Positions 5,270 through 44,927 of a stretch of DNA of 47,779 nucleotides are shown here, piece after piece. The number at the start of each line of letters is the position of its first letter. Positions within the stretch are counted from its first letter, which is position 1. The notes below the pieces were generated by a model. That model was not told where the DNA came from. It ran no database searches and worked only from the letters and a program-made list of their open reading frames with translations. This DNA comes from Nioella nitratireducens (GTDB taxonomy: Bacteria > Pseudomonadota > Alphaproteobacteria > Rhodobacterales > Rhodobacteraceae): positions 1-47,779 of the forward strand of contig NZ_MNBW01000021.1 of the NCBI RefSeq assembly GCF_001879715.1, read 5' to 3'. Position numbers and translations under genes: made by a program.

Positions 5270-6598
5270 TCAGTGGTCATGCGCGGCCTGCTGGGGTGCC
5301 AGCCACCGAGACAAATAGATCCGCTCGAATATGAAGACGGCGGTGATGCCACCAACTGCATAGAGCACGATGAGCGGATCGCTCCGAAGTTTCATCGCGG
5401 TGAAGGCCGCCAGCACGACGGAATCGAACGCCAGAGCCAAAAGCAGCACGCAGCCTGAGGCACCGACCTCCTCGCGTCGGTAGCGGAAAACGCCCCAGTG
5501 CACGGCCATGTCCATGACAAGATAGAAAAAGGCACCGAGCGAAGCGATCCGGCCGAGGTCGAAGAACACAGCAAGCGTCGAAGCGATGACAATTGTGTAA
5601 ACGAGCATATGCCGTTGGATCGGTCCCGGCATGCCGAAATGGCTGTGAGGGACCATCTTCATATCTGTCAACATCGCCAGCATGCGCGATACGGCGAACA
5701 CACTGGCCAGCACGCCAGAAGCCGTGGCCACCGCCGCCAGGATTACGGTCAGAAAGAAACCGGTTTGCCCCAGGGAGGGTTCGGCGGCCTCGGCCAGCGA
5801 ATAGTCCCGCGCTGCGACGATCTCGTCGATGGTCAGGCTCGAGCCGACACCGAAGGCAACCAACAGATAGACAGCCACGCAGATTGCGATGGATATCACA
5901 ATGGCCCGGCCCACGTTGCGGTTCGGGTCGGTGATCTCGGAACCGCTGTTCGTGATCGTGGTGAAGCCCTTGAAGGCCAATATCGCGAACGCCACCGATG
6001 CGATGAAGCCCATCACACCATAGGACTGCGTGTCGCTCGTTGCAGACGAAAACTGGAAGCCGCTCGACCAGATCGCGGCGATGCCGAACAACCCGATGCC
6101 GCCGATCTTGATCGCCGCCATGATCAGCGAGAACACCCCGACCGACCGGTTGCCGGCGATGTTTACCAGGAAGGCGAAGACAATGACGCCCACGGCGAGG
6201 GTTGGCACCAGCGGACCACCGGTTATGTCGAAGGGGCGCAGGACGTAGGTTGCGAAAGTCCGGGCCACAAGGCTTTCGGCAATCACCATGCTGAGGGCCA
6301 TTAGCAGGGCGGCTCCCGCCGCGACCGCGCCGGGGCCATAGCATTTCTGCAGGATCATCGCGATCCCGCCCGAGGACGGCCATTTGTTCGACATCCGTAT
6401 GTAGCTATAGGCGCTGAAGCCGGTCACGATTGCGCCAGCGATGAAGGCAAGCGGGAAGAGCGGCCCGGCAAGCTGCGCGATCTGCCCGGTCAGTGCGAAG
6501 ATGCCCGCGCCGATCATAACACCGGTTCCCATGGCGACGGCGCCGCCCAATGTGATCGACCCTTCGCGGTAGGTGTCGCTTCTATCCTTGTCTTGCAT
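5270..6598 (-). CDS. APC-superfamily amino acid/polyamine permease
   Basis: This 442-residue inner-membrane protein has about 12 hydrophobic segments. The first helix carries the APC signature (residues about 17-35: AMGTGVMIGAGIFALTG), and a Ser/Gly-rich later helix is followed by TNSGSEITDPNRNVGRAI, typical of this superfamily. The substrate cannot be read from sequence. It is the last gene of the long - strand operon. Its ATG lies inside the 3' end of the UbiB-like gene (17-base overlap), so translation is probably coupled. Longer upstream extensions in this frame belong to the neighbouring gene's sequence and are not used. Confidence 0.88.
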   Translation of the reverse strand: MQDKDRSDTYREGSITLGGAVAMGTGVMIGAGIFALTGQIAQLAGPLFPLAFIAGAIVTGFSAYSYIRMSNKWPSSGGIAMILQKCYGPGAVAAGAALLMALSMVIAESLVARTFATYVLRPFDITGGPLVPTLAVGVIVFAFLVNIAGNRSVGVFSLIMAAIKIGGIGLFGIAAIWSSGFQFSSATSDTQSYGVMGFIASVAFAILAFKGFTTITNSGSEITDPNRNVGRAIVISIAICVAVYLLVAFGVGSSLTIDEIVAARDYSLAEAAEPSLGQTGFFLTVILAAVATASGVLASVFAVSRMLAMLTDMKMVPHSHFGMPGPIQRHMLVYTIVIASTLAVFFDLGRIASLGAFFYLVMDMAVHWGVFRYRREEVGASGCVLLLALAFDSVVLAAFTAMKLRSDPLIVLYAVGGITAVFIFERIYLSRWLAPQQAAHDH

Positions 6599-8651
6599 GC
6601 TTTGCTGCCTCTTCGTTTTCGACTTCGTCCAACACTGGCACGGTGTGCCACCTGAAATCACAATGGTCGTGGCCCCCGGCAATCGTCTTCGGCCGCACCA
6701 GCTGCCCGCCCCATTTCTCGGCCACCGGAAAATCGAGGGCGCACCACGTTGCCGCGCAGAGCGCTGAGGCATCATGGCCCGCAAAGAACTCGGCCACCGG
6801 GCATTTCGTACAGTCGAACGCAACGACGCCTGCGCCCGCCTCGACGTCGCGCCAACCATAGGCTGGCGGTCCAAAGGGGAAATGGCGGAACAGGTCCGTC
6901 GCGATGCGCAATCGCTTGGCCGGATCGGTGGTGATGGCGCGGGCGAACTCGAACGGGGGATCGGCCATGCGATTGTAGATGTCCCAGCCGATCGCATGGA
7001 TGACCTCATGGCTCTGCGCCTCTGACCGCCCTCGTGCGATCAGGGTTCGATGCAACGCAAGCGTCAGCGCGGCAAGATGCGTGGTCAGGATCGCGCCGGC
7101 GTTCGGCTCCAGCGGAAAGCCGCGTTCAAGCAGATCGTAGGCCACCCAGGTCTCCGAGAGGATCGCGTCAGTCTCCTCGCCCAGATGGCGCAGGGCGAAA
7201 TGACTGAAAAGTATCGTCAGCGCGGCGCGGCCGATGCTCTCATCCGATGAGGTGATGGCCGCCAGTATCCCGCGCCCCATCCCGCGGGTTGCGAAACGGT
7301 CCCAGGTCTCGTCAATCGCGTCAGCAGGTGGCATGGCACCTGTCAGCAGAAGCTCGGGAAGCACCTGCGTGATACGCCCCAGCGGATCGCTGGCCGCCAG
7401 ACGCGTGGCGACCTCGCGCGCGATGAAGGGCCGCGACAAGTCGTCGAACCGCGCCTCGGGCGCCAGCACGAACAGCAACGCCTCGGCGGTGGTCAGCGCC
7501 TTGGCATGGAGCATGAGCGAGGCAGGAAAGACGAACCCGGCGCGGTAGCCCGCGCGCATCATCGCAAGATAGGTTCGCGCAAGGCTGGCCTCGCGTGAGG
7601 GCGCCGCGTAGAATTCCGCCGCAAGCTCCTCGAACCTTTGCCGGAACAGCGCGTGATCGGCGCCCGCCAGGGCTTCGGTCTGGGCGCTGAAATGGTGATA
7701 GGCGCGCCGGGTCTGCCGCTGTGCGACGGCCATCCAGTACAGCACGAAGCGGTCGCGCTGCGCCGCATCTAACTCGCCATACATGCCGAAATCGAGCAGC
7801 GTGACACTGCCGTCGGTATGAAAGACGATATTGCCGGGATGCAGGTCGGCGTGAAACAACCCGTCCGACACGAACATCTTCAGCAGCATCGACACCAGCG
7901 CCTCCACCAGTACGGATCGGGTTTGTTCAGGAAGGGTGGCCGAGGCCTCGGACAGGCGCATGCCGTCGACCCAATCCATGGTCAGCACGCGGGCCGTCGT
8001 ATGGTCGGGATACGTCCTTGGAATTCGGACACGATCCTGCCCTGCGAGATTCTCGCGAAACCGCTCCATCACAGCCGCTTCGGCGCGAAAATCAAGTTCG
8101 GCCAGGGAGTAGCGCCGAAACTCCAAGAGGAACGCCGACAAATTCGTGCGCCGAAGACGGCGCGGCAGCACCATACGCGCGATCCGCAGCCCGAGGTCGA
8201 ACGCGTCGAGATCGCGGTGGAACAGCGGCCCCAGCCCCGGTCGATGCACCTTGACCGCGACCGCCGTGCCATCCGCCAGACTTGCCTTGTGCACTTGGGC
8301 CAGCGACGCGGCAGCGACGGGTTTGACCTCGAAGCTGGCAAAGGCTGTTTCCAGCGGCGCAGCCAGTTCACCCTCGACGATGCGCCGCACCGTGGCGAAG
8401 TCAACCTCGGGCGCACGCTCCTGCAATTCCGCCAGCCGCGCGACGTAGCTTTCGGGCAGAATGTCGGGGCGGGTGCTGAGGATCTGGCCCAGTTTGACGA
8501 AGACCGGCCCCAGAGCGAGCAGGTTTCGGGCGAACCTGTCCGGTGCACCAGTGTCGCCGCTGGCCGGATCATATCGCCTGAGGGTCCAAATGTCTTTCGA
8601 CAAGACGACGACAATCCGGGCCAGCCGCAGGAAGTTCTTGGTGCGGTTCAC
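6582..8651 (-). CDS. UbiB/ABC1-like atypical kinase fused to an ATC-hydrolase-like C-terminal domain
   Basis: This 689-residue protein has an N-terminal two thirds with the marks of the ABC1/AarF/UbiB kinase-like family: KLGQ (53-56), the Ala-rich loop AAASLAQVH (113-121) followed by VAVKVHRPG, catalytic-type HADLHPGN (267-274) and DFG (287-289). UbiB members support ubiquinone biogenesis or lipid handling. The last ~80 residues carry FDCTKCPVAEF (from C614), an LC...WC pair (C632, C637) and CDFRW (C664). This resembles the C-terminal part of L-2-amino-thiazoline-4-carboxylic acid hydrolase-type proteins. The segment between (about 330-600) is helical and unassigned. The gene overlaps the upstream reductase gene by 4 bases. 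The kinase call is firm; the second domain and what it acts on are inferred. Confidence 0.8.
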   Translation of the reverse strand: MNRTKNFLRLARIVVVLSKDIWTLRRYDPASGDTGAPDRFARNLLALGPVFVKLGQILSTRPDILPESYVARLAELQERAPEVDFATVRRIVEGELAAPLETAFASFEVKPVAAASLAQVHKASLADGTAVAVKVHRPGLGPLFHRDLDAFDLGLRIARMVLPRRLRRTNLSAFLLEFRRYSLAELDFRAEAAVMERFRENLAGQDRVRIPRTYPDHTTARVLTMDWVDGMRLSEASATLPEQTRSVLVEALVSMLLKMFVSDGLFHADLHPGNIVFHTDGSVTLLDFGMYGELDAAQRDRFVLYWMAVAQRQTRRAYHHFSAQTEALAGADHALFRQRFEELAAEFYAAPSREASLARTYLAMMRAGYRAGFVFPASLMLHAKALTTAEALLFVLAPEARFDDLSRPFIAREVATRLAASDPLGRITQVLPELLLTGAMPPADAIDETWDRFATRGMGRGILAAITSSDESIGRAALTILFSHFALRHLGEETDAILSETWVAYDLLERGFPLEPNAGAILTTHLAALTLALHRTLIARGRSEAQSHEVIHAIGWDIYNRMADPPFEFARAITTDPAKRLRIATDLFRHFPFGPPAYGWRDVEAGAGVVAFDCTKCPVAEFFAGHDASALCAATWCALDFPVAEKWGGQLVRPKTIAGGHDHCDFRWHTVPVLDEVENEEAAKHARQG

Positions 8652-9748
8652 GGTCTTCCTCGTTTGACCCCTGTCGACCAGGTTTCGACTGCCATGCTCG
8701 GCAGGAGACGGCGGAGATCGTCCAACGCCATGGCGAATGTCAGGTGGTCGATGATGGTCGACACGCCGGGTATCGGGCTGTCCGCCGGGGGCAATGCGCG
8801 GATCGTGGAAAGGATCATTGCCGCCGTCACCTCGGCCTGATCGCCGGCTGCGACATGACGCGAGGCAGCAACGCTGCCGTCAGCCTCTTGCACCTCGACG
8901 GCTATGCGGGTCCGGGCTTGACCCAGTTCCGGCAGCCGCCTCAATACTCGCGTCACGCTGCGTTTGCGCCGCGACAGCACCGGACCGAGACCAAGCCGCA
9001 AGAGCAGGCCGACAGCGCGCGTCACGAAAGGAGGATCGATCGCCACGAAAGTACGGACCAGGACCGGGGGCCCGCTGGCCGAACAATCCGCGACGCCATC
9101 CACAGGGAAGCCGATCCCAAGCGCGGGGCGCGTCCGCCCGCCCCGCTCGAAAGCAAATGAGCGACGGAGGTCTCCCGGCCTGACCGTGGTGTTTTCGGGA
9201 CCGGAAAGCCGATACGGGCGGCCGAAGGCGCAAATGGACCATTCCGTCGCGGCCGTTCCATAGTGGCGGCCCATGCCGAGTTCCAACCCGATGTCCACCG
9301 CAACAGCCTCTTTTTCGCGGACAAGTTCTGCCGCCATCAAGGTGCTCAAGCCGGGCGCGGCCCCGACGCAGAGGACGAGCGTGCCCGGACCACCGACCTC
9401 CACCACGTCGCGTCTCAGTGCCTGTAGGTAGTCCGGCGACGCCGAGGTCTCGAGGAAGCTTCCGCCGCTACGAACCACTTCGACTGCGATCGATGGCGGC
9501 GTCGCTTCGGTCAGGTTTATCACCGTTGCGCCAAGGGGCAGTTTTCTGGCGGCGCCCCTACCGGCGATGTCGAGCCGGAGCGCCTCGACACGATCACCTG
9601 ACCCAACACCGCTGCGAGAAACCAGCAGTATGCGGGCTGCCGTCTGATCGACCAGCAACCGAACCAGCCGTCCGCCGACATCGCCCGTGCCTCCGATCAG
9701 CACGACGGTTCCTTGCACTGGTGGCTGGTCGGGGCGTCTTGCCATCAT
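8648..9748 (-). CDS. Saccharopine-dehydrogenase-like NAD(P)-binding protein
   Basis: This 366-residue protein opens with a Rossmann nucleotide-binding loop (VVLIGGTGDVGGRLVRLL, about residues 15-32). The overall pattern (ATVINLTEATPP, then GAAPGLSTLMAAELV) is that of the saccharopine dehydrogenase/carboxynorspermidine synthase-like family, cytoplasmic and of unknown substrate in most members. It is clearly not the lysine-pathway enzyme by context. It is coupled by 4-base ATGA overlaps to the cytochrome gene upstream and the UbiB-like gene downstream, so it likely acts with one of them. Confidence 0.75.
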   Translation of the reverse strand: MMARRPDQPPVQGTVVLIGGTGDVGGRLVRLLVDQTAARILLVSRSGVGSGDRVEALRLDIAGRGAARKLPLGATVINLTEATPPSIAVEVVRSGGSFLETSASPDYLQALRRDVVEVGGPGTLVLCVGAAPGLSTLMAAELVREKEAVAVDIGLELGMGRHYGTAATEWSICAFGRPYRLSGPENTTVRPGDLRRSFAFERGGRTRPALGIGFPVDGVADCSASGPPVLVRTFVAIDPPFVTRAVGLLLRLGLGPVLSRRKRSVTRVLRRLPELGQARTRIAVEVQEADGSVAASRHVAAGDQAEVTAAMILSTIRALPPADSPIPGVSTIIDHLTFAMALDDLRRLLPSMAVETWSTGVKRGRP

Positions 9749-10242
9749 TCGATCCCGTTGGCGCGCTGCAACGCGCGGATGTAGCTGACGATCAGACCAA
9801 CCGTTTCCACCTCGATCCCTTCGACGGGCGGCATGTCACCGAAGTTCCAGTGATGCGACCGAACGCCTGCCGTCGCTGCCCGTTGGAACGCCCCATCCCC
9901 ATGATGACCAGGTTCGTATATGGAATGGATCAGCGGCGGACCATTGCCGGTCCCGCCAGCTCCGTTTTCACCATGACACGATGCGCAGTTTTGCTCGAAC
10001 GCGATCTGGCCAAAATATGATGGTGCGCTCAGGGTTTCCGGCACGATGATGGTATCGGGATCGGGTGCGGGCGCCCCGGCGGCGTCGCCATGCATCTGGG
10101 TGTTGACCCTTGGTCGGTCGGCTTCCACCTCATCGGACTGGACCAACAGGCCAGTTGCCAATCCGAATGCGAGCAGGGAGGCAATCGCCATTGTCTTTCG
10201 GGGCATTGTTGCGGAGTTTCCGCGCTTCTTGGTTTTTGTCAT
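9745..10242 (-). CDS. Class I c-type cytochrome with SHHWNFG motif
   Basis: This 165-residue protein has an N-terminal membrane anchor or uncleaved signal (about residues 18-34), a variable linker, and one haem site CASCH (86-90). Downstream is a conserved-looking block YEPGHHGDGAF...GVRSHHWNFGDMPP, whose Met is the likely sixth haem ligand. The C-terminal half is strikingly similar to the cytochrome at 36288. It is periplasmic-facing. The ATG at 10242 is preferred (GGACGGGA upstream) over 10284. It sits between the methyltransferase-like and reductase genes. Confidence 0.88.
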   Translation of the reverse strand: MTKTKKRGNSATMPRKTMAIASLLAFGLATGLLVQSDEVEADRPRVNTQMHGDAAGAPAPDPDTIIVPETLSAPSYFGQIAFEQNCASCHGENGAGGTGNGPPLIHSIYEPGHHGDGAFQRAATAGVRSHHWNFGDMPPVEGIEVETVGLIVSYIRALQRANGIE

Positions 10243-10253
10243 ATTCCCGTCCG

Positions 10254-10910
10254 TTATCTGTTTGCACTTATCAAGTTCGACCACCGGTGCGGAATGAAAG
10301 CGGGAGCATCTGCGGCGTAGCGATCCCAGTCATCCCCGAAGCGCGACCGGCTGTCGGCCTCCTCGGCGTGGGCGAGACGTGCGTACATCCAGACCAACAC
10401 CGGGAACATCGCAAGCGTCAGCAGTGTCGGCCATTGCACGAGAAAGCCCGCCATGATCAGCACGAAGCCCACATATTGCGGGTGGCGAATGCGTGAATAG
10501 GGCCCGGTCGTTGCCAGTACGCCGCGTCGCTGCGCCGACCAGAGATGGTGCCAGGCCACCGAGATCAGCCAGAACCCGCCGCCGATCAGTGCCAAGCTCA
10601 GGAAATGGAATGGACCGAAATGCGGATTTGCGCGCCATCCGATCATCATCTCGGGGAGATGCCCACTGTCATGCGCGAACCAGTCGACATCCGGCCAGGT
10701 TGACTGGAGCCAGCCGGACAGGAAGAAGATGGTTAGGGGAAACCCGTACATCTCGGTAAAAAGGGCCACGATGAAGGCGCTGAACGCCCCGAAACTGCGC
10801 CAGTCCCGCGACGTCTGCGGCTTGAAGAAGCTGAAGGCGAAGATAATGAAGACGGCCGAGTTGATGAAGACCAGCAGCCAAAGGCCATAGGCAGTTCCGG
10901 GATCGGTCAT
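10254..10910 (-). CDS. Isoprenylcysteine-methyltransferase-like membrane protein
   Basis: This 218-residue protein has about five membrane segments. The C-terminal block GPYSRIRHPQYVGFVLIMAG followed by HAEEADSRSRFGDDWDRY is the S-adenosylmethionine-binding signature of the ICMT/PEMT-type integral-membrane methyltransferases. The substrate is unknown; bacterial members are often found in metal-resistance clusters. Its start overlaps the stop of the DUF2933 gene by 4 bases. Confidence 0.82.
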   Translation of the reverse strand: MTDPGTAYGLWLLVFINSAVFIIFAFSFFKPQTSRDWRSFGAFSAFIVALFTEMYGFPLTIFFLSGWLQSTWPDVDWFAHDSGHLPEMMIGWRANPHFGPFHFLSLALIGGGFWLISVAWHHLWSAQRRGVLATTGPYSRIRHPQYVGFVLIMAGFLVQWPTLLTLAMFPVLVWMYARLAHAEEADSRSRFGDDWDRYAADAPAFIPHRWSNLISANR

Positions 10911-11170
10911 GTCCTGTCTCCTCCTCCGCCATGTCCGCCGTGGCCCCCATGCATGAAGAAGTGCATGCCCACGCAAAGCAGTAGCGGCAACCACAGGAGC
11001 CAGTTGCTGCCGAGGATGTGGACCCGGTGCTCGTAGCCCAACAGGAGGCCGCCAACGACCAGCGCAACGATCAGGTAAATGCCAGCGCGCGACCGCCAGA
11101 AGGAAGGGGTCGGGGAAGATTCCTGCAATTGGTCGCGATCGGCATGTGCAGGTTCAGGGTGCTTGTTCAT
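10907..11170 (-). CDS. DUF2933-type small membrane protein
   Basis: This 87-residue protein has two hydrophobic segments (about residues 28-47 and 55-70). The second ends in LCVGMHFFMHGGHGGHGGGG, a Cys/Met/His cluster suited to metal binding at the membrane. The match to the DUF2933 family rests on the LLC-GMHxxMHGGHG pattern. It follows the P-type ATPase gene by 15 bases and resembles the protein at 35178, which lies behind another CueR-type operator. Confidence 0.85.
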   Translation of the reverse strand: MNKHPEPAHADRDQLQESSPTPSFWRSRAGIYLIVALVVGGLLLGYEHRVHILGSNWLLWLPLLLCVGMHFFMHGGHGGHGGGGDRT

Positions 11171-11185
11171 GTTGGATTTCCATTT

Positions 11186-13534
11186 CTAAACCTTTGCGCT
11201 GCGCAGACGCAGCGAATTGAGCACCACCGAGATCGACGAGGCGCTCATGGCGAAAGCGGCGAACATGGGGCTGATGAGAATGCCGAAGAAGGGAAACAGA
11301 ACACCCGCCGCGACCGGTACGCCGGAGGCATTGTAGATCAGCGCGAAGAAGAGATTCTGGCGGATGTTGCGCATGGTCGCCTGCGCAAGCCGTCGTGCGC
11401 GAACGATACCGTCGAGGTTTCCCTTAACCAAAGTGATGCCGGCGCTTTCGATGGCGACGTCGGCGCCGGTGCCCATGGCGATCCCGACATCTGCTTGGGC
11501 CAACGCCGGCGCGTCGTTCACGCCGTCCCCGGCCATCGCGACCTTGCGGCCTGCCTCTTGCAGCTCCCTGATGATGCGGGCCTTGTCCTCGGGCAGAACA
11601 TCTGCCCGGATCTCGTCGATGCCGAGCCGCGATCCGATCGCCTTTGCCGTGCGTTCATTGTCGCCCGTGGCCATGATGACGCGGAAACCAAGCGCATGCA
11701 GATCCTTGATCGCAGCGGGGGTCGTCTCCTTGATCGGGTCCGCGACGCCGACCAGGCCGGCGATCACGCCTTCGACCACCACGAACATGACCGTCTCGCC
11801 TTCGTCGCGGCGAGCGTCTGCCTTGGCAGTCAGGTCGCCTGCCTCGAGCCCCAGATCGCGGATCATCGCGAGGTTGCCGAGCGCGACCGACTTTCCATCG
11901 ACGACTCCTTTGACCCCCTTGCCGGTCACGGCCTCGAAATCCGTCGCATCGGCCATCTTCACCCCGCGCTCTTCCGCACCCCGAACGATGGCTTCGGCGA
12001 GCGGATGCTCGGACCCGCGTTCGAGCGAGGCGGCAAAGCGCAGGACTTCCGGCTCGTCATGGCCTGTCTCGGGCAGGACGGCGACAAGCTTCGGCTTGCC
12101 CTCGGTCAGGGTGCCGGTCTTGTCGACAATGAGAGTGTCGACCTTTTCGAACCGCTCCAGCGCCTCGGCGTTCTTGATCAGTACCCCGGCCTGTGCACCG
12201 CGGCCTGTGGCTGTCATGATCGACATGGGCGTGGCCAAGCCCAATGCACAGGGGCAGGCAATTATCAACACCGCGACGGCTGAGATCAACGCATAGGACA
12301 GCGCCGGTGCCGGCCCCCAGATCGCCCAGGCGATGAAGGACAGGATTGCGATGCCGATCACCGCCGGGACGAAAAATCCGGCGACCTGGTCGGCGTATTT
12401 CTGGATCGGCGCCCGGCTGCGCTGCGCGTTCGCCACCATTTCGACGATCTGGGACAGCATCGTGTCGGCCCCGACGCGCGTTGCCTCCATCACCAGGCTG
12501 CCGGTTCCGTTGATCGTGGCCCCGGTCACAGGATCGCCCTCGGTCTTCTCGACAGGGACAGGCTCGCCCGAGATCATGCTTTCATCGACGGAGGACCGGC
12601 CATCGACCACGACGCCGTCGACCGGCACCTTGTCACCGGGCCGCACGCGCAGTTCGTCGCCCACCTGAACCTCTTCGAGTGCGATTTCCTCTTCCGTCCC
12701 GTCAGGCCGGATCACGCGGGCGGTCTTTGCCGCCATGTCAAGAAGCGCGCGGATCGCCTTGCCCGTGCCTTCTCGGGCGCGCAGCTCCATCACCTGGCCG
12801 AGCAACACGAGTGTCACGATCACGGCGGCCGCCTCGAAATAGACGCCGACATGCCCCTCGGGGTCGCGGAAGCCGTCCGGAAAGATGCCCGGAGCCAGAA
12901 CCGCGACGATGCTGAAGATCCAGGCAGCCATCACGCCCATGCCGATCAGCGAGAACATGTTGAGGTTCATGGTGCGAAACGAATTCCAGCCGCGTACCAG
13001 GAACGGCCATCCGCACCAGAGGACGACGGGCGTGCCGAGCACCAGTTCGATCCAGAGCGTCGTGCGTTCGCCGAAGATATCCCGCACACCGGGGAACCCG
13101 ACGAACGGCGCCATGGTCAGAATCAGCAGCGGGATCGTTAAAACAGTGCCAACCCAGAAGCGCCGGGTGAAATCGACCAGCTCCGGGTTCGGGCCCTCCG
13201 CAGCCATCGCGGCCGATTCCAGTTCAAGCCCCATGCCGCAGATCGGGCAGGAGCCGGGATGCGTCTGACGGACCTGTGGGTGCATCGGGCAGGTATAGAC
13301 GGCGCCATCATATCCGGCCGGAATCTCATCGTATCTGGCATCCGTCTTGCTCGAATGTCCTTGCGCGCCGTGGGCGTGGTGATCGTGCCCGGCATGGGCG
13401 TCAAGCTCCGCCTCCGGGACAAGGTGCATCCCGCATTTCGGGCAATCGCCGGGACCGTCCTGCCGCACTTCGGGGTGCATCGGGCAGACATAGGTGTCGG
13501 TGTCATCGGCGGACTGGTGAGCGTGGTCGTTCAT
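11186..13534 (-). CDS. Heavy-metal P1B-type ATPase (copper/silver type) with two HMBD domains
   Basis: This 782-residue inner-membrane metal exporter has two N-terminal heavy-metal-binding domains ([20 protein letters not shown] from C17; [20 protein letters not shown] from C82), separated by a His-rich linker (about 48-60). The CPC metal-selectivity motif is at 427-429, the phosphorylated Asp is D471 (DKTGTLTEG), and TGDN and [10 protein letters not shown] follow. CPC plus YHS/HMBD-type domains, rather than CxxC HMA domains, place it with CopA/CopB-like Cu pumps distinct from the 23262 gene. A CueR-type promoter lies 39 bases upstream of the start, inside the preceding gene. AAGGA precedes the ATG. 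Confidence 0.95.
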
Positions 13535-14478
13535 CGGGTGTTCCTTTCGGAGCGAGTCGGGGTCAACCTAATCCTTCCACTTACTGGAAGGTCAATGCCT
13601 GACACAGCTGACCGAACCGCCTTGGCAAGCACACCGGCGGTTCCGATCACATTGGAGGGATGCGGGATGGTATCGGTGGTGACAATCCGTGCGGCACCGG
13701 CGGACATGATGACGTCATATGCCCCTTCCGCAAAGACCGCGTGGATGGCCAGACAGACCGGCGATCCGGTTCCGGCTGCAAGCAATCGCTCGACGGCGCG
13801 CGCCATCGTCCTGCCGGAAGACGCAATGTCATCGAGTATCACCGGGGTGCCCTGGTGAAGCGTGGCGCTCTCTGGCACGCTGACATCAACCTGGAGATCG
13901 CCGATCCTGACCTTTCGCAAGACTTCGTACGGTCGTGCGGCGAGCCGGGCCACTTCAGCAACCCATTGCTGGCTTTCGCTGTCAGGTCCCACGAATACGG
14001 CATCGGGCAGATTTGTCCGAATCCAGTCGGCGAGAAGTGAGGCGGAAGCGACACGCACGGCCGGGATCGTGAAAACATCCTCCAGGCGCTCGATGCGGTG
14101 CAGATGGGGATCGACCGTCACCAGCCAGTCAAAACTGTCGGCGAGAAATCCGGCGAACAGCTTTGCGCTGACGGCCTGTCCGGCATGAAAGCGCCGGTCC
14201 TGCCGCATGTATCCCAGATAAGGCGCGATCAGCCCGACGCTCCGGGCTCCCAGCTCTCGGGCCGTCTGCGCGACGAAGCGCAGCGGAAGTGCCAGCCGGT
14301 CGGGATCACGAAGGGTTGCGAGAACCGCGACATCGGCACCTTCCATATTGCCCGGCAAGGTCATCAGGCTTTCGCCGTCGGGGAAGCGATGCCAGTCGAG
14401 CGGACAGAGTTCTGCACCCAATGCCGGCGCGAGGGATCGCGAGAGAGTTTTCATTTCCGGGAACGGAACAAGGATCAT
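13531..14478 (-). CDS. Ribose-phosphate pyrophosphokinase (PRPP synthetase) homologue
   Basis: This 315-residue protein has a duplicated phosphoribosyltransferase-type fold. It has the flexible ATP loop YMRQDRRF (90-97), the metal-binding VDPHLHR (122-128), and the ribose-5-phosphate loop [11 protein letters not shown] (215-225). VDPHLHR replaces the usual DLHxxQ of bacterial class I enzymes, so it belongs to a divergent branch and is probably not the housekeeping copy. It is coupled by ATGA overlaps to the AMP-phosphorylase-type gene before it and the Cu ATPase after it. A role in handling ribose phosphates from that enzyme is inferred. Confidence 0.85.
13573..13595 (-). promoter_or_regulatory. 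CueR-type operator/promoter upstream of the Cu ATPase, inside the prs-like gene
   Basis: On the - strand TTGACC (13595-13590) serves as -35 and overlaps a perfect dyad CCTTCC-N7-GGAAGG (13591-13573). A -10-like TAGGTT lies 19 bases after the -35 (13570-13565). The 19-base spacing with a central dyad is the hallmark of MerR-family activated promoters, and the dyad closely matches the known E. coli copA CueR site. Unusually, it lies within the last 65 bases of the upstream coding sequence. Confidence 0.8.
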
Positions 14479-15983
14479 GCCGAATCCTCCGACAGGGTCA
14501 GCGCGCCGACATGGGCTTCTGCATAAGCGCGTGCATAGGCCAGTTCGCCGGTCGTCTCGGCGTGGATCTCATAGAGCGGCTGTCCTGCTTCCACTGCTTC
14601 TCCGACCCGCACCAGCAGACGAATTCCCGCCCTCTGCTGGCGCGGCGCGCCGGCAAGCTTTGTAATGCGGGCAATCAAACGGTTGTCGATGGCAGAAATA
14701 TTTCCTGCCGCTGCGGCTGGCATCTCAACGCGTTGCGGCGCTTCTCCGGGTTCGTGGAACCCACCCTGCGCGGCGCAGATCGCCAGGAATTTCGCCTCTG
14801 CAGCGCCCGTGTCGAGCAGAATTTCTGCCCGCGCCCTGCCCCTTCCGCCGGTTGCGCCCGGTGCCATGTCGAGCAGCCGACCCGCAAGGTCAAGAGCACG
14901 TTCGCGCAAATCCGTCGGCGCACCCGGCGCACGCCGAAGCACCGCCAACACATCCGCCGCCTCGAGCGCAGGGCCGATGCCGCGCCCGACCGGGGCCGTG
15001 CCATCACTTTCATGAAGCGCGACGCGCAGCCCGATGGCTTGACCGACCGAACTCAGGCGGGATCCCAGGGACGCTGCTGCCAGCGCTGAGCGCACCTTGG
15101 CTGTTGGCCCGACCGGCATATCGATCAGCACGTCAGTTGCACCGACCGCCGCCTTCTTTGACAGGACGCTGGCCACCAACTGTCCGGTGCTGTCAAAATC
15201 CAGCGGTCTCTCGATGCGGATGAAGTGATCGTCGGCCGGGCTGAGGTTCAGTCCGCCGCCCCAGACCACGCATCCGCCTTCGGCTTCGACCACCCTGCGC
15301 AGCGCTGCAGCGTCCAGAGCTACCGGTGCCATGACTTCCATCGTGTCGGCGGTCCCGGCGGGGGAAGTGATCGCCCGGCTCGACGTCTTGGGGATCAGAT
15401 GCCCGGCTGCGGCAACGATGGCGACGACGATCGGGGTTGTTCGGTTTCCCGGCAGGCCACCGACACAATGCTTGTCCAGGACGGTCTCGCCACCCCAGTC
15501 AAGCGTTTCGCCCGCAGCCTGCATTTCGCGGGTCAGCGCCACCGTCTCTCCATCGTCAAGACGGTTTCCGGCGCTGGCAGTGATGAAGGCGGCGAGATCT
15601 AGATCCGAGAGACGGTTGTCGAGCGTATCGCGAATGATCGCGGCAAAATCCTCTCGCTGCAAACGCCCTCCATAGACCTTGGCCCGGATAGCGGACGACG
15701 AAACAGGCGGCTCGGGATGCGAGAAACCTGCCCGGTCGCCAACTTGCGCCTTCAGCGCCTTCCAGGCCGAGACCGACAGCGCAGCCTCTTCCACGGCCAG
15801 CCATGCGCCGCGCGCGACCACGTTCAGCGTGGCGATGATCCAGCGGTTGCGCAGGTCTACGCGAATTCGGGTCTCGGCGGCGAACCCTTCGGAACGACAG
15901 ATGTGGCAATCTTCGTGCATGTAGACGACCGGTTGGCGGTAGGTGTCTATTCCGGAGGGGACGAGTGCGAGCGTTTCGGTCAT
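14475..15983 (-). CDS. AMP phosphorylase/thymidine phosphorylase-type enzyme
   Basis: This 502-residue protein has a ~90-residue extra N-terminal domain followed by the nucleoside-phosphorylase fold. Motifs are DKHCVGGLPGNRTT (170-183) and SSRAITSPAGTADTMEV (201-217), the latter being the family phosphate-binding signature in the form seen in archaeal AMP phosphorylases rather than SGRGLGHTGGTLDKLE of classical DeoA. Length and both motifs therefore fit the group that cleaves nucleoside 5'-monophosphates with phosphate to give a base and ribose-1,5-bisphosphate. Substrate choice cannot be proven here. It overlaps its neighbours by 4 bases on each side. Confidence 0.85.
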   Translation of the reverse strand: MTETLALVPSGIDTYRQPVVYMHEDCHICRSEGFAAETRIRVDLRNRWIIATLNVVARGAWLAVEEAALSVSAWKALKAQVGDRAGFSHPEPPVSSSAIRAKVYGGRLQREDFAAIIRDTLDNRLSDLDLAAFITASAGNRLDDGETVALTREMQAAGETLDWGGETVLDKHCVGGLPGNRTTPIVVAIVAAAGHLIPKTSSRAITSPAGTADTMEVMAPVALDAAALRRVVEAEGGCVVWGGGLNLSPADDHFIRIERPLDFDSTGQLVASVLSKKAAVGATDVLIDMPVGPTAKVRSALAAASLGSRLSSVGQAIGLRVALHESDGTAPVGRGIGPALEAADVLAVLRRAPGAPTDLRERALDLAGRLLDMAPGATGGRGRARAEILLDTGAAEAKFLAICAAQGGFHEPGEAPQRVEMPAAAAGNISAIDNRLIARITKLAGAPRQQRAGIRLLVRVGEAVEAGQPLYEIHAETTGELAYARAYAEAHVGALTLSEDSA

Positions 15984-17362
15984 CGCGGACGGTCCAGATA
16001 CACGGTTTCCAGATGCTCGGGCGCGCGGGCCGGTCGTCCGAGTTCATGGTCAATGCGGAAGCGCAGGGCATCGGATGCCGAAGGCTCGCCATGTGTCACG
16101 TAAGTCATGCGCGGTGTCGGACCGGTCGACATCCAGCGCAGGATCTCTTCGGCGTCGGCATGGCCTGAAAACGACTGAAGTTGCACGACCTCGGCCTCGA
16201 TGGGGTATTCGCGGCCAAACATCCGTAGATGATGTGCACCGTTGGCCAAAGCGGCCCCACGCGTGCCACCGGCCTGAAATCCCGACAGGAGGATCGCATT
16301 GCGGCGGTCGCCTCCGAAACTGATCAGATGATGCAGGATGCGTCCGCCGGTCAGCATTCCACTTGCCGAGATGATGATCATCGGCCCTTGGCGGGTGTTC
16401 AGGTGCTTGGATTGCTCGACGGTGTTCACTCGCTTGGCCAGCTTGAACATCGCCAAGCACTCTTCCCAGCTGACATGATGCTCGTCATGGTGCCGGTGAT
16501 AGATCTCGGTGGCGTCGACCGACATGGGGCTGTTGAGAAAGACCGGGATATAGGGAATTTCGCCCCGCTCGATCAACCGCGAAATATGCAGCATCAACCC
16601 TTGGGCACGGCCGACAGCGAAAGACGGAATCAAGACCGTGCCGCCCCGGGCGAAGACCCGTTTCAGGACCGGCGCCAGTTCCGCCTCCGGGTCGATGCCG
16701 GGATGGACGCGGTTGCCGTAGGTGGATTCGCAGACAAGGACATCGGCACCGGCAAAGGGCGCGGGCGGACGCATCAACGGGTCCGGGTCGTGCCCCAGAT
16801 CGCCGCTGAAATGGATGACCTTTCCACCGAACTCGATCCGGATCTGCGCTGCGCCCAGAAGGTGCCCCGCCGGAATGAAGGTCGCGGTGATATCGTCGCC
16901 CAGATCGACCCTTTGCCCGAAATCCACGGTATCGAACCGTTCGAGCGCCGCCTCGGCGTCCTTCAGCGTGTAGAGCGGTTTCGGGTTCTTGTGTTTGGAA
17001 AACCCCCGGCGCGCGGCATAGCGCGCTTCCTCCTCCTGGATGTGGCCGCTGTCCGGCAGGATCAGCCCGCAAAGCTCGGCCGTGGCACGGGTGCAGATGA
17101 CGCGGCCCCCATAACCGGCCCGGATCAGTGCAGGAAGATACCCGGAATGATCCAGATGCGCATGCGTCAGCAACACGGTGTCGATGGTGGACGGTCGCGC
17201 CGGGAAGGGTTTCCGGTTTCGCGCGCGCAGTTGCTTGAAGCCCTGGAACAGGCCGCAATCGACCAGAATGCGTCGCTGACCGATCTCGAGCAGGTAGCGC
17301 GAGCCCGTGACGGTTCCGGCGGCTCCGAGAAACCGCAGCGAGGGGCGTTTGAAGGGTGTCAT
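15980..17362 (-). CDS. RNase-type metallo-beta-lactamase (beta-CASP, CPSF-like)
   Basis: This 460-residue protein has an N-terminal metallo-beta-lactamase domain with the zinc motif HAHLDHSG (67-74) and later GHLLGAAQI and SGDLGHDPDPL. A beta-CASP insert follows, and a C-terminal RNA-specificity segment ends in SFSGHADAEEI. The family (CPSF73/RNase J relatives) contains endo- and 5'-exoribonucleases. The ATG at 17362 gives the standard family start; sequence upstream in frame belongs to the adjacent gene. The gene overlaps the phosphorylase gene by 4 bases, suggesting a stepwise RNA degradation and salvage pair. Confidence 0.9.
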   Translation of the reverse strand: MTPFKRPSLRFLGAAGTVTGSRYLLEIGQRRILVDCGLFQGFKQLRARNRKPFPARPSTIDTVLLTHAHLDHSGYLPALIRAGYGGRVICTRATAELCGLILPDSGHIQEEEARYAARRGFSKHKNPKPLYTLKDAEAALERFDTVDFGQRVDLGDDITATFIPAGHLLGAAQIRIEFGGKVIHFSGDLGHDPDPLMRPPAPFAGADVLVCESTYGNRVHPGIDPEAELAPVLKRVFARGGTVLIPSFAVGRAQGLMLHISRLIERGEIPYIPVFLNSPMSVDATEIYHRHHDEHHVSWEECLAMFKLAKRVNTVEQSKHLNTRQGPMIIISASGMLTGGRILHHLISFGGDRRNAILLSGFQAGGTRGAALANGAHHLRMFGREYPIEAEVVQLQSFSGHADAEEILRWMSTGPTPRMTYVTHGEPSASDALRFRIDHELGRPARAPEHLETVYLDRPR

Positions 17363-17724
17363 GCTACCCTCCTGCGGTTGGCGAAGGCGTTGAACAGGCC
17401 ACCGAAGATCAGGGCGACATACCAGCCGTAGAGGAAGCTCTCGACAAGGCCGATGACGAACCCTGCGGGCGTCAGCCAGACGAACCCGGGCAGCAAGCCC
17501 GCCCAAGTCTCATACATTGCATAGCTGGGAAATATCAGGTCGAACGCCACGCAGATCAGGAAGGTCAGGGTCAGGAACAGGCTCAGCGCCCAACCAAAGG
17601 CCATCAACGGGATGCGCACTGCCCCTTCTGGACCGGACTTGCCCATCACGCAGTCACCACAGGTGAAGCGAAGCGCCACGAACAGGATGACTGCGAGGAC
17701 GGCAAAATAGATGATTGCGATCAT
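17359..17724 (-). CDS. DUF5676-type membrane protein
   Basis: This 121-residue protein has three to four membrane segments. The block LPGFVWLTPAGFVIGLVES followed by FLYGWYVALIFGGLFN fits the DUF5676 family; its function is unknown. An N-terminal TM with FTCGDCVMG has a CxxC pair that could bind metal or a cofactor. Start 17724 is chosen from the initial hydrophobic helix and the upstream AAGGAGA. It overlaps the metallo-beta-lactamase gene by 4 bases. Confidence 0.82.
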   Translation of the reverse strand: MIAIIYFAVLAVILFVALRFTCGDCVMGKSGPEGAVRIPLMAFGWALSLFLTLTFLICVAFDLIFPSYAMYETWAGLLPGFVWLTPAGFVIGLVESFLYGWYVALIFGGLFNAFANRRRVA

Positions 17725-17838
17725 TTCAATTCTCCTTGTTGCGAACGATGGCGTTTTGACGCCTCCACCACCTTTCGATCGCTTCCGAAGCAGCCGACAC
17801 GCCCTGCTTGACCTGTCCAATTTGTCGCGGATACGTCA

Positions 17839-18438
17839 TTACCCAATTACCAGTTGTAGATCGGTGCCCAACTCATAGGGCGGAATGTCCAGATTGCGTG
17901 GCGCGGGCCCTCTTCGAATTCTGCCTGAAGTGTCGTAGTGAGACCCGTGGCAAGGGCAGAACCAGCCGCCGAAATCGCCGACTGCCGCACCGTCCTGACC
18001 CAGAGGGATGCATCCAAGATGCGTGCAGACGCCGATCACCACGAGCCATTCTCCGGTTGCGTCCGCGGCCCTGTTCTCATCCAGCGCCGGAACTTCGGCG
18101 TCGAGGTTCGGGTTCTCGCGTCTGGTATCTAGCGGATCGACCAAGTCATCGAGAGAAACGTTTCGCGCAGCGGCGACGGCGTCGGGCGATCGCCGCCAGA
18201 CGAAGACCGGACGTCCCTGCCAAAGGACGGTAATACGTTGACCCTCTTCCACCCCAGTGAGGTCGATACGAACAGTTGACGCACTGCCGACATCGGCTGA
18301 AGGATTCATGGAGTTGATCAGCGGCCAGATGGCGGCACCGGTTGCGACGGCTCCGGTGCCCGCAGTTGCATAGTATAGAAAGTCGCGCCGCTCTTCTTTC
18401 CGAGGCGATTCCAGATCATCAGAAACCCAGGTCATCAT
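17839..18438 (-). CDS. petA: Rieske iron-sulfur protein (PetA-like), orphan
   Basis: This 199-residue protein has a Tat-type N-terminus ([10 protein letters not shown]), a single membrane anchor (about 24-42), and the two Rieske boxes CTHLGC (C138, H140, C143) and CPCHGSHYD (C161, C163, H164) that hold the [2Fe-2S] cluster. The length matches alphaproteobacterial cytochrome bc1 Rieske subunits. No cytochrome b or c1 gene is near it, so it either joins a chromosomally encoded bc1 complex or has another partner. AAAGGAG lies just before the start; a second ATG at 18435 is equally possible. Confidence 0.93.
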
Positions 18439-18853: not shown

Positions 18854-19474
18854 TCACATCACTGCGGCATCCTCCCTGCAATTCGAATGCAGCGCGTGGT
18901 TTTCGCATCCGGCAGGCGGGCAGAAGCAGTCGTCGCGATCCGTCTCGCAACAGGGCCCGCAATGGCTTAGCAAGCTATCCTTCAGGGCAGTGCGCGCGCG
19001 ATGCAATCGCACCGCCAAAGTGCCGCGCGTCAGCCCCAGATCAGCGGCGACAGTGGCACGGTCGTCCTCTTGCAGGTCTATCCGGCGGATCAGATCGGCA
19101 TCGGTCGGCCGCAATTCGGGGAGCAGACCCGCAGAACAGCGGCATAGTCGCGACAACTGACCGGTCGCATCCTCCGTCCAGCCCTCCGGCTCGGCCGCCA
19201 CGGTCTCTGCAAGATGCCGTCGCCGCGAGGCTTTGCGATAGTGATCGTTCAGGGCCGAGCGCAGTACGGCATAAAGCCAGGCGTTCATCCGCTCGACATC
19301 GCGAAGCTGATCCTTGCGGGCCAGAACCCGAATGCAGAAGTCCTGAAGCACATCCTCGGCCTCTGAACGGTTTCCGAGGCGTTTGGCAAGAAATCCAAGG
19401 AACGCTTTGCGCCCCTCAATCAATGCGGTCTCGGTCGATGGTCCGCAGTCAGTTCCTTTCATATTGTTGCACAT
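18854..19474 (-). CDS. ECF sigma-70 factor with Cys-rich C-terminal tail
   Basis: This 206-residue protein has sigma region 2 (about 25-90: EAEDVLQDFCIRVL, then MNAWLYAVLRSALNDHYRK) and region 4 (about 120-170: TVAADLGLTRGTLAVRLHRA). The last 35 residues hold seven Cys (172, 175, 176, 183, 185, 190, 199). A Cys-rich tail of this kind is known from CorE-type ECF factors that sense metals directly. No anti-sigma gene is adjacent, which fits. The ATG at 19474 is chosen because AAGGAAGGA precedes it; upstream codons only allow a TTG start. It follows lgt by 31 bases. Confidence 0.88.
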   Translation of the reverse strand: MCNNMKGTDCGPSTETALIEGRKAFLGFLAKRLGNRSEAEDVLQDFCIRVLARKDQLRDVERMNAWLYAVLRSALNDHYRKASRRRHLAETVAAEPEGWTEDATGQLSRLCRCSAGLLPELRPTDADLIRRIDLQEDDRATVAADLGLTRGTLAVRLHRARTALKDSLLSHCGPCCETDRDDCFCPPAGCENHALHSNCREDAAVM

Positions 19475-19505
19475 TCCAATTCCTTCCTTCAGTGACGACG
19501 ATAGG

Positions 19506-20429
19506 TCACGCGACAAAACTGGTTCGCTGCTTGGTTGCGGTTCCCGATCGTCTGAACGCGTGCAATACCAAGGCCAGCCCGATCAGGATCATCGGCGCCG
19601 AGAGCACCTGCCCCATGGTCAGTCCCCAATCGCCAAAATGGATCGCATGGCCGACAGGATTTCCGGGGGTGACGAATTGCGTATCCGGCTGGCGAAACAA
19701 CTCCACGAGACTTCTGGCAGCGCCGTATCCGACCAGGAATGTCCCGGTGAGCGCTCCCGGCATCTTCAACCAACCGCGCCGCCAGGCGAGGTAGATCAGA
19801 ACGGTGCCAAGTAGCAGGCCTTCGAGCAGCGCCTCGTAAACTTGCGAGGGATGGCGGGCGCAAAGGGAAACGACACCGAGGCAATTTTGCGCAGCCGCAC
19901 CCGGAAAGATCACTGCCCAGGGAACGTCGGTGGGGCGGCCCCAAAGCTCATTGTTGATGAAGTTTGCGAGCCGCCCGAGAAACAGCCCCGTCGGGGTCGC
20001 CAACGCGAGAAGGTCGGCCACACTGAGCAGCGACGCCTTCTGGCGAAGACAGAAGACCAGCCCGGCGATGGCAACGCCCAGGAAACCGCCATGGAACGAC
20101 ATGCCGCCCTGCCAGACTTTCAGTATCTCCAGCGGATTGGCCATGTAGTATTCCGGTTGGTAGAACAACACGAAACCGAGGCGTCCGCCGACGATCACGC
20201 CGAGGATGATCCAGGTGAGAAGTTCCTCGATCTGGCGTCGATCCAGCGGTGGCCCGGCCCTGGACCACAGCGCCGGGCGGCTGACCGCCATCACGCAAAT
20301 GCGCCAGCCGATCAAAAGGCCGAAAATATAGGCAAGCGCGTACCAGCGCAGCGCAAACGTGAAGCTGCGGATCTCTATCGAGAAAAGCTCGTGGCTAATG
20401 TCCGGAAATGGGATGGCGGCGGTCAGCAT
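19506..20429 (-). CDS. lgt: Prolipoprotein diacylglyceryl transferase
   Basis: This 307-residue inner-membrane enzyme transfers diacylglyceryl to the lipobox Cys of prolipoproteins. It has about seven membrane segments and the characteristic motifs [29 protein letters not shown] and [12 protein letters not shown]. Its length is slightly longer than usual because of the C-terminus. Every such bacterium has a chromosomal lgt, so this is probably a second copy. Its pairing with a Cys-rich ECF factor and metal genes suggests lipoprotein supply under metal stress (inference). It follows the TVP38-like gene after a 123-base gap. Confidence 0.95.
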
Positions 20430-23124: not shown

Positions 23125-23158
23125 AGCCATCTCCTTCATCCTCGCGACGAAGATGGGT

Positions 23159-23180
23159 GCTTCCCACATGGGAAGGTCAA
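23159..23180 (-). promoter_or_regulatory. CueR-type operator/promoter for copZ
   Basis: On the - strand TTGACC (23180-23175) runs into CCTTCCCATGTGGGAAG. The arms CTTCCCA/TGGGAAG form a perfect 7-base dyad. The gap between CTTCC and GGAAG is 6 rather than 7 bases, one shorter than the copA site, and the -10 (around 23150-23156) is poor. Confidence 0.6.
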
Positions 23181-23204
23181 GAAAAAAAATTCTTTTGCAC
23201 CCCG

Positions 23205-23235
23205 TTGACCTTCCAGCAAGGGGAAGCCCTAGGTA
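23205..23235 (+). promoter_or_regulatory. CueR-type operator/promoter for copA-cueR
   Basis: TTGACC (-35, 23205-23210) overlaps the dyad ACCTTCCAGCAAGGGGAAG, with a -10-like TAGGTA after a 19-base spacer (23230-23235). The dyad core is essentially the reverse complement of the well-known E. coli copA CueR site. The transcript start would fall about 20 bases before the chosen copA ATG. Confidence 0.88.
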
Positions 23236-23261
23236 CTGTCGAGATGATGAAGGAGACTCAG

Positions 23262-25781: not shown

Positions 25782-25794
25782 GGAGGGTTGCAAA

Positions 25795-26214
25795 ATGAAC
25801 ATCGGAGACGTGGCCGAGAAGTCCGGCTTGCCGCCCAAGACGATCCGCTATTATGAGGAGATCGGACTGGTGAAGCCTTTGCGCAGCGCAAACGGATATC
25901 GTACCTTTCTGGAAAGCGACGTCCACAAGCTCGCGTTTTTGGGCCGCGCCCGCGCGCTAGGATTTACTATAGAAGACTGCCGCAATCTGATGGCACTTTA
26001 CGAGGATGACCAACGAGCCAGCGCAGAGGTCAAGGAGATCGCCGAACAGCATCTCGAACGGATCGACAAGAAAATCACTGAGCTTGAGCAAATGCGTGCG
26101 ACGCTCTCGAATCTGGTTCATGCCTGTGCCGGAGACCACCGCCCGGATTGCCCAATTCTGGCAGACCTTGCCGCGACATGCCTGGACAACGAGTTGATTG
26201 AAAACACGGCATAG
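25795..26214 (+). CDS. cueR: CueR, MerR-family Cu(I)-sensing activator
   Basis: This 139-residue protein has an N-terminal MerR winged helix (MNIGDVAEKSGLPPKTIRYY), a long dimer helix, and the metal-binding loop with C111 and C119 (HACAGDHRPDCPI), matching the two-Cys spacing of CueR/HmrR for monovalent metals. GGGAGGG precedes the ATG. It is co-transcribed with copA and is the natural activator for the dyads at 13573, 23159, 23205 and 35525-35613. Confidence 0.94.
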   Translation: MNIGDVAEKSGLPPKTIRYYEEIGLVKPLRSANGYRTFLESDVHKLAFLGRARALGFTIEDCRNLMALYEDDQRASAEVKEIAEQHLERIDKKITELEQMRATLSNLVHACAGDHRPDCPILADLAATCLDNELIENTA

Positions 26215-26360
26215 CGGGGATCCGCAGGCTTCGCCTGGGCGATCTTACGAACCGACGCGCTTTCATGATCGAACCGCGCCGATCCGAGGGTGATCGATGA
26301 TCGCGGCGTCATCGCTTCCTCGTGCCCGGATTGTATCGGGTCGTCATGTTTTCCGTCCTT

Positions 26361-26378
26361 GTTACATATCGTGACAAT
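26361..26378 (+). promoter_or_regulatory. Repeated operator-like motif, copy 2 (GTTACATATCGTGACAAT)
   Basis: This lies 43 bases upstream of the response-regulator ATG. It is one of three copies of GTTACATNNCGNNACAA in the window, with half sites TTACA and TGACA 10 bases apart. Position next to the regulator's own gene suggests autoregulation by an OmpR-family protein (inference). Confidence 0.5.
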
Positions 26379-26421
26379 TCCGAGGCGGAAACACCACGGC
26401 CTTTGGCATAGGACTTATTCA

Positions 26422-44926: not shown

Positions 44927-44927
44927 G

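Follow-up and report, generated by a model that had tools for sequence, protein, structure and literature searches.

A conserved ribonuclease, phosphorylase and PRPP-synthetase-like gene trio next to a copper pump in Nioella nitratireducens: a candidate RNA-recycling module through ribose-1,5-bisphosphate

In the archaeon Thermococcus kodakarensis, nucleoside monophosphates (NMPs) are used by a pathway that consists of an NMP phosphorylase, a ribose-1,5-bisphosphate (R15P) isomerase and RuBisCO (passages of PMC9700705 and PMC8376864). In the parts of the literature used here, Thermococcus is described as forming ribose-1,5-bisphosphate from NMPs, and so are other archaea and some RuBisCO-bearing bacteria; the Thermococcus AMP phosphorylase was long misnamed thymidine phosphorylase, as a passage of PMC8376864 relates. 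A second likeness, by annotation only, is the predicted operon bll3117-bll3116-bll3115 of Bradyrhizobium diazoefficiens, listed in tables of PMC9104804 and PMC6515984. Here we analyse a trio of genes with the same three annotated functions, encoding a beta-CASP ribonuclease (RNase), an NMP-phosphorylase-like protein and a homologue of phosphoribosyl pyrophosphate (PRPP) synthetase, in the alphaproteobacterium Nioella nitratireducens. The stretch analysed, called the window below, is one whole contig of 47,779 bases (NZ_MNBW01000021.1) from a draft genome of 4.0 Mb in 84 contigs. The trio is a real conserved module, and judging by its genes it is moderately likely to be a bacterial system that recycles RNA and NMPs through ribose-1,5-bisphosphate under stress. 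With the Thermococcus pathway it has in common the phosphorylase family, the N-terminal region of that enzyme, a Lys at a putative phosphate-binding place and the expected product; it differs in that the host has neither RuBisCO nor R15P isomerase, the trio holding an RNase and the PRPP homologue instead. The Bradyrhizobium operon differs in gene order (thymidine phosphorylase, PRPP synthetase, metallo-beta-lactamase (MBL)) and in its control by microoxia, and the tables name no pathway for it.

The trio and the pump gene that follows it are:
15980..17362, minus strand: beta-CASP metallo-beta-lactamase RNase, TTHA0252-like, 460 amino acids (Pfam Beta-Casp 112.7 bits, RMMBL 52.9 bits)
14475..15983, minus strand: NMP (AMP)-phosphorylase-like protein of the thymidine phosphorylase superfamily, 502 amino acids (NF003338 626.2 bits; Pfam Glycos_trans_3N, Glycos_transf_3 and PYNP_C)
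13531..14478, minus strand: divergent class III-like PRPP-synthetase homologue, 315 amino acids (NF005537 365.4 bits; Pfam Pribosyltran_N and Pribosyltran)
11186..13534, minus strand: Cu(I)-type P1B ATPase with two stretches of heavy-metal-binding domain (HMBD), 782 amino acids (TIGR01511 588.6 bits, cut-off 397; CPC, YNASGVP and MSASS motifs)

A 4-base ATGA overlap is present at all four junctions from a preceding DUF5676 gene to the RNase, phosphorylase, PRPP homologue and ATPase genes. The overlap between DUF5676 and RNase makes the chain one gene longer upstream than in an earlier, sequence-only reading of this DNA; the coordinates, ATGA overlaps and phosphorylase motif SSRAITSPAGTADTMEV (residues 201-217) given by that reading proved correct to the base when the open reading frames (ORFs) were checked, and its identification of the four proteins agrees with the Pfam and NCBI model matches. 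The RNase frame stays open to 17506, and the ATG at 17362 is the start that overlaps the preceding gene.

The trio recurs outside this stretch, contrary to the missing co-occurrence that would have refuted the sequence-only reading. Among 240 genomes drawn evenly from the Alphaproteobacteria, the window's own included, the phosphorylase family (E 1e-60) occurs in 35, the PRPP homologue in 18 and the RNase type in 21. With bit limits chosen after the scores had been seen (phosphorylase >700, RNase >600, PRPP homologue >240), both partners are present in 14 of the 14 genomes with such a phosphorylase (Fisher p 2e-19 for the phosphorylase with the PRPP homologue, 7e-18 with the RNase). A member of the phosphorylase family is present in 17 of the 18 genomes carrying the PRPP homologue, and the PRPP gene adjoins that of the phosphorylase in 12 of the 14 genomes, the genes lying on separate contigs in the other 2.

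Gene neighbourhoods were compared in 91 loci: the window, 10 plasmid loci hand-picked from 60 among 150 matching records, and 80 genome loci, which are the best 80 of at least 585 matched stretches; 82 of the 91 have a 1.5 kb flank on both sides. Their genes are mechanical ORFs retained by conservation, with cluster names that rest on one or few scanned members. Because several loci are near-copies (L003/L015, L018/L039, L059-L063 in part, L067 and L068), counts thinned at 90% identity are given in brackets. The PRPP homologue is within 300 bp of the phosphorylase in 71/82 flanked loci (52/61), the RNase within 1.6 kb in 59/82 (41/61), and the complete trio is found in 53/82 (36/61), the loci spanning Alpha-, Beta- and Gammaproteobacteria, Bacteroidota and Chlamydiota. 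Pairwise-identity correlations among the three proteins (r 0.73, 0.76 and 0.65) show only that the genes move together. The pairing of RNase and phosphorylase extends beyond the trio: in another phosphorylase lineage, scoring about 600 bits, the two genes lie side by side in genomes G231, G093, G135, G236 and G175, with a more distant beta-CASP partner (about 423-455 bits) and no PRPP gene nearby. The pattern is not found in G165 (loci L093-L097 are those of G231, G093, G236, G165 and G175).

The phosphorylase scores above the PRK04350/TIGR02645 subfamily cut-offs (434 bits for NF003338; 547.1 against 434.6 bits for TIGR02645), and its archaeal-type N-terminal region lies within a match to the AMP phosphorylase model TIGR03327 (residues 14-490 on positions 11-486 of 500). 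The closest solved structures are 4ga4 and 4ga5, which we take to be the Thermococcus enzyme. Lys296 aligns with K288 of 4ga5, presumably in contact with the 5'-phosphate, and with a Phe of the pyrimidine phosphorylase 5oln. The host's own thymidine phosphorylase (L002; PRK05820 571.5 against 269 bits), 32% identical, also has a Phe at the equivalent position. Lys is found here in 91/91 loci, while 16 other alphaproteobacterial family members have Lys (13), Arg (2) or Leu (1). Because of the Lys in the place of Thermococcus K288 and the archaeal-type N-terminal region, the enzyme looks nucleotide-specific, and it is very probably an NMP phosphorylase.

The PRPP homologue exceeds the NF005537 cut-off of 322 bits (PRK07199 subfamily). 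An AlphaFold2 model calculated from a 34-row input has a mean predicted local distance difference test score (pLDDT) of 92.4. Its best match in the PDB is the M. jannaschii PRPP synthase 1u9y (template modelling (TM) scores 0.79/0.90), and archaeal PRPP synthases are the top matches. Fold and catalytic residues are in common with M. jannaschii 1u9y and T. volcanium 3mbi, which we take to be what is called class III. Residues were counted over the 82 loci in which the homologue scores above 200 bits. Eleven positions with presumed catalytic roles (F32, D34, E36, R92, Q93, D94, H125, D166, K189, R191 and D217) are each retained in 82/82, and D216 in 81/82. The canonical PDxGG and HAxQ active-site segments are lacking: where the housekeeping enzyme of the host has DLHATQ and SPDVGG, the homologue has DPHLHR and GPDxES, in 82/82 loci. 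Residues P124, L126, H127 and R128 thus replace L, A, T and Q of the housekeeping enzyme, and E168, S169, Q171 and W172 replace G, G, A and R, again in 82/82. Catalytic residues kept together with conserved motifs of its own argue for a distinct, conserved enzyme type, not a decayed copy.

The beta-CASP RNase has the MBL, beta-CASP and RMMBL parts of its class with all metal motifs intact (HxHxDH, SGD, EST, SGHA and HGE), and its nearest solved relative by sequence is Ribonuclease TTHA0252 (E 1.6e-70).

The host genome encodes PhnN (184.2 bits, cut-off 156), which could turn ribose-1,5-bisphosphate into PRPP, an exit that the sequence-only reading did not have, and a separate housekeeping PRPP synthetase (contig C12, 362.5 bits). 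The observation that neither RuBisCO nor R15P isomerase is near the trio, made earlier from the window, can be extended to the entire draft genome: RuBisCO is absent from it, and the sole match to the R15P isomerase model is weak (144.2 against 314.1 bits) and is a methylthioribose-1-phosphate isomerase of the MtnA type (TIGR00512 417.6 against 279 bits). A RuBisCO-type archaeal route was rejected for this host. With PhnN present and these two enzymes missing, a closed route from RNA to NMP, ribose-1,5-bisphosphate, PRPP and ribose-5-phosphate would follow.

In such a route, the beta-CASP RNase would, as its family suggests, cut RNA to give NMPs, and the phosphorylase, for which the active-site residues speak, would convert NMP and phosphate to base and ribose-1,5-bisphosphate. 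From gene content, either the chromosomal kinase PhnN or the PRPP homologue of the trio may convert the latter to PRPP. The homologue would then interconvert PRPP plus AMP and ribose-5-phosphate plus ATP, in either direction. When AMP is plentiful from RNA breakdown, the reverse reaction would remove AMP, raise the energy charge and release ribose-5-phosphate; the known reactions of the families would in that case sum to 2 AMP + phosphate → adenine + ribose-5-phosphate + ADP. Where phosphoketolase and acetate kinase exist, ribose-5-phosphate could give further ATP. E. coli AMP nucleosidase hydrolyses AMP to ribose-5-phosphate, lowering AMP and releasing adenine. The trio would likewise lower AMP and free adenine, but the nucleosidase works by hydrolysis. 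On this element the trio lies in one run of genes with a Cu(I) pump and electron-transfer proteins, so that its expression would answer to the same stress as theirs. The three proteins probably act in one RNA-to-ribose-phosphate route; that energy or AMP removal is the purpose of the module is quite possible, although we lean slightly away from it. The parts of the sequence-only reading that find support are the conserved trio and the nucleotide-specific-looking phosphorylase; its wiring to copper, in the form given, does not.

Within 10 kb, a phosphoketolase-like gene is found in 28/91 loci (15/69), acetate kinase in 12/91 (9/69), ATP-cone/Mrr proteins in 10/91 (9/69), a GAPDH-like protein in 10/91 (3/69) and, measured from the phosphorylase, the UbiB cluster in 21/91. 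Most of the phosphoketolase linkage is seen in Gamma- and Betaproteobacteria, several of the latter having the gene on the opposite strand; a few Alphaproteobacteria and one chlamydia add to it. The trio-linked phosphoketolase-like proteins, to judge from their low model scores, form a divergent subfamily, and the ATP-cone proteins, which adjoin or lie near the RNase in Bacteroidota and Chlamydiota, are a possible nucleotide-sensing partner of the trio. Examples are:
L016:12427-14907: phosphoketolase-like protein of about 800 amino acids, beside the trio (129.7 bits, NCBI cut-off 777)
L008:5203-7572: phosphoketolase-like protein of about 800 amino acids, beside the trio (best score 135.1 bits, cut-off 962)
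L057:12481-14886: phosphoketolase-like protein of about 800 amino acids, beside the trio (Pfam XFP 143.7 bits)
L078:2127-2981: ATP-cone protein with an Mrr-like nuclease domain
L011:1972-2817: ATP-cone protein
L010:6780-7622: ATP-cone protein

Table 2 of PMC9104804 gives 37 B. diazoefficiens genes in 26 FixK2-box units that are down in both fixK2 mutants in microoxia. There a FixK2 box at -74 is given for the predicted operon bll3117-bll3116-bll3115, with changes of -6.6 fold for bll3117 and -30.6 fold for bll3115 in the fixK2 deletion; these two genes have rows of their own and bll3116 appears only as operon member. The phosphoketolase-acetate kinase operon bll2518-bll2517 is in the same 26-unit table. 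The microoxia table of PMC6515984 names bll3115-3117 as MBL fold metallo-hydrolase, ribose-phosphate pyrophosphokinase and thymidine phosphorylase family protein. Over our 91 loci, taken whole and not mapped promoter by promoter, FNR-type boxes number 37 sites, against 2-10 in ten shuffles.

Several results weigh against recycling through ribose-1,5-bisphosphate. The phosphorylase scores under the NCBI equivalog cut-off for AMP phosphorylase (TIGR03327, 432.6 against 535 bits), and the activities of the three enzymes are predictions from their genes. The PRPP homologue is missing in 9/91 loci (200-bit limit) and the RNase in 24/91 (300-bit limit), some of the stretches ending at contig ends. 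The RNase type occurs without a phosphorylase above 700 bits in 7 of its 21 genomes, one of which, G167, has a phosphorylase at 581 bits. Phosphoketolase is absent from the genome of the window organism and from 15 more alphaproteobacterial loci, which include short ones; its co-occurrence across the Alphaproteobacteria was not upheld at genome level (1/14 against 8/226 of the 240 genomes, p 0.42). FNR/FixK-type boxes in the window are at chance, with 5 one-mismatch matches for 3.4 expected.

The window ATPase carries the CPC, YN....P and M..SS motifs, which we take as marks of P1B-1 Cu(I) pumps, and has a TIGR01511 score to match. A CPC-type ATPase within 200 bp after the PRPP gene is found in 12/82 loci, and a phosphoketolase-like gene in the same position in 11/82; the 200-bp limit drops L020, by start codon choice, and L079 of Legionella, in which a copper-type ATPase (TIGR01511 616.6 bits, cut-off 397) begins some 250 bp downstream of the PRPP gene. 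Joined phosphorylase and PRPP protein sequences from part of the loci gave a tree of 33 rows (L054 not among them; L020 and L019, which has a partial ATPase, were labelled Cu by hand). Its 13 Cu-labelled rows fall within a single group of 15 whose other two members are L016 and L017, with two label changes. These two are nested in the Cu group (support 98/97) and have in the pump slot an 826-amino-acid phosphoketolase-like protein, followed by genes of the DUF2933 and ICMT-like clusters, which is most simply explained by a refilling of the slot. Any P-type ATPase is within 10 kb in 56/91 loci (35/69), with CPC in 23, CPH in 11 and neither in 25; one ATPase of this last kind, in L010, scores highest with Ca-type models. 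P-type ATPases are also present in 5/15 further alphaproteobacterial loci, 3 of the 5 being CPC and upstream of the RNase, and in 0/16 loci, on shorter stretches, of other phosphorylase lineages. From these varied counts and types, the P-type ATPase link is recurrent but neither universal nor copper-only, and the pump would seem to have been added in one clade and to stand outside the pathway.

Conserved adjacency holds for the trio and, in general, not for the pump: a trio wired to copper is unsupported as it was written, the pump link being mostly local, to one alphaproteobacterial clade and once to Legionella, and a copper-specific module was rejected as a general rule. That the trio repairs or recycles copper-damaged RNA and is functionally tied to the pump is improbable, even though an ATGA overlap or a near one couples it to a CPC-type ATPase both in the window and in loci of the Roseobacter group, Stappiaceae, Erythrobacter and Novosphingobium, pumps are present in Legionella and in the three further alphaproteobacterial loci, and copper genes take up much of the window. 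The rarity of the pump in the downstream slot, its restriction to one clade of the tree with phosphoketolase-like replacements nested inside, and the Ca-type or unclassed ATPases of other loci stand in its way. As published, the Bradyrhizobium operon answers to FixK2 in microoxia, and a copper signal for it was not found in the passages used here; the titles, abstract starts and passages searched on copper contain no report of copper induction of the trio. Less probable still is that the enzyme is a common thymidine phosphorylase engaged in pyrimidine-nucleoside salvage, as the public annotation ("thymidine phosphorylase family protein") has it: position 296 is Lys and not Phe, the N-terminal region is archaeal-type, and a second thymidine phosphorylase is unneeded because the host has its own, with which this one shares 32% identity.

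Two other explanations, each unlikely but to be taken seriously, concern what the trio is for. In forward salvage, the PRPP homologue would make PRPP and AMP from ribose-5-phosphate and ATP, the phosphorylase would remove the AMP, and PhnN would convert the resulting ribose-1,5-bisphosphate to further PRPP. The aim would be neither carbon nor energy but a supply of PRPP with which purines, pyrimidines and NAD are salvaged after damage. The catalytic residues checked match a forward PRPP synthetase, the nearest folds are class III synthetases and PhnN is present; but the host already has a housekeeping PRPP synthetase, and the RNase and the phosphoketolase and acetate kinase neighbours are left unexplained. 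The genes may instead be passengers of stress islands that help in low oxygen or starvation, with P-type ATPases, UbiB, DUF6629 and others as cargo without a shared pathway. Such a role is in keeping with the wide variation of neighbours, the over-representation of FNR-type boxes in the 91 loci and the 109 plasmid records with a relative covering at least 80% of the phosphorylase, but the trio holds together more tightly than any other neighbour counted. A bolder version of the recycling module, speculative and on balance unlikely, makes the PRPP homologue a new enzyme that would act directly on ribose-1,5-bisphosphate, its additional invariant His127/Arg128 and Glu168/Ser169, next to the catalytic residues, recognising the second phosphate. 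Together with the RNase and the NMP phosphorylase it would make up a mobile pentose-bisphosphate pathway of bacteria, free of RuBisCO, from RNA to PRPP, or to ATP and ribose-5-phosphate, for use when oxygen or respiration fails, copper poisoning included.

The titles and abstract starts of the open-licence literature searched contain no description of the trio as a pathway, and the Bradyrhizobium papers give table rows. If recycling through ribose-1,5-bisphosphate is correct, the trio would give Proteobacteria a form of this chemistry with another exit, borne by plasmids that also have metal-resistance genes and controlled by FixK2 in a model rhizobium, and it would show, in a genetically tractable system, how stressed bacteria regain energy or PRPP from RNA. 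Several hundred genes now named thymidine phosphorylase would then need a new name; relatives are encoded in 584 of the at least 585 matched stretches, a total within which the share of the NMP-phosphorylase type was not counted.

The minus-strand gene run in which the trio lies consists, in order, of a sigma factor, a small ORF, Rieske, DUF5676, RNase, phosphorylase, PRPP homologue, Cu ATPase, DUF2933, ICMT-like and cytochrome c genes, and continues onward. Spacings from the sigma factor to DUF2933 are 91, 15, 18, -4, -4, -4, -4 and 15 bases; downstream of DUF2933 the genes overlap by amounts that vary with start choice. The sigma factor gene is the probable start of the run, and in Roseovarius a sigma factor likewise lies some genes upstream of the trio. 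The other genes of the run and its surroundings are:
18854..19516, minus strand: sigma-70 family factor, region 2 (Pfam Sigma70_r2 39.1 bits)
17839..18438, minus strand: Rieske Fe-S protein, 18 bp upstream of the DUF5676 gene (TIGR01416 209.2 bits)
17359..17820, minus strand: DUF5676 membrane protein, first in the ATGA-overlap chain (PF18926 28.8 bits, cut-off 27.6)
10907..11170, minus strand: DUF2933 protein, 15 bp past the Cu ATPase (PF11666 56.3 bits)
10254..10994, minus strand: ICMT/PEMT-like membrane methyltransferase, its true start probably further in (PF04140 27.0 against 24 bits, PF04191 26.2 against 25 bits)
9745..10284, minus strand: cytochrome c (PF00034 41.6 bits)
6582-8651, minus strand: UbiB/ABC1-type kinase with a C-terminal ATC_hydrolase match (43.4 bits)
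19506-20429, minus strand: prolipoprotein diacylglyceryl transferase, Lgt (233.9 bits), a cluster found in 5/91 loci
23157-25781: second P1B ATPase
25768-26214: MerR regulator
26290-28592: two-component pair, named from a reading of the translation alone
38704-40095: multicopper oxidase
522-2702: VirD4-like ORF (445.6 bits, below the NCBI cut-off)
43892-44986: VirB11-like ORF (228.9 bits, below the NCBI cut-off)
44928-46253: VirB10-like ORF (184.3 bits, below the NCBI cut-off)

With Vir-like ORFs at both ends, the contig is apparently a conjugative element rich in copper genes. Two plasmids, NZ_CP066787.1 and CP070277.1, both of 166348 bp and with equal matches, are filed as Martelella lutilitoris and as a Dysgonomonadaceae bacterium, respectively; they are perhaps one plasmid from a mixed culture, or one of the records is misfiled.

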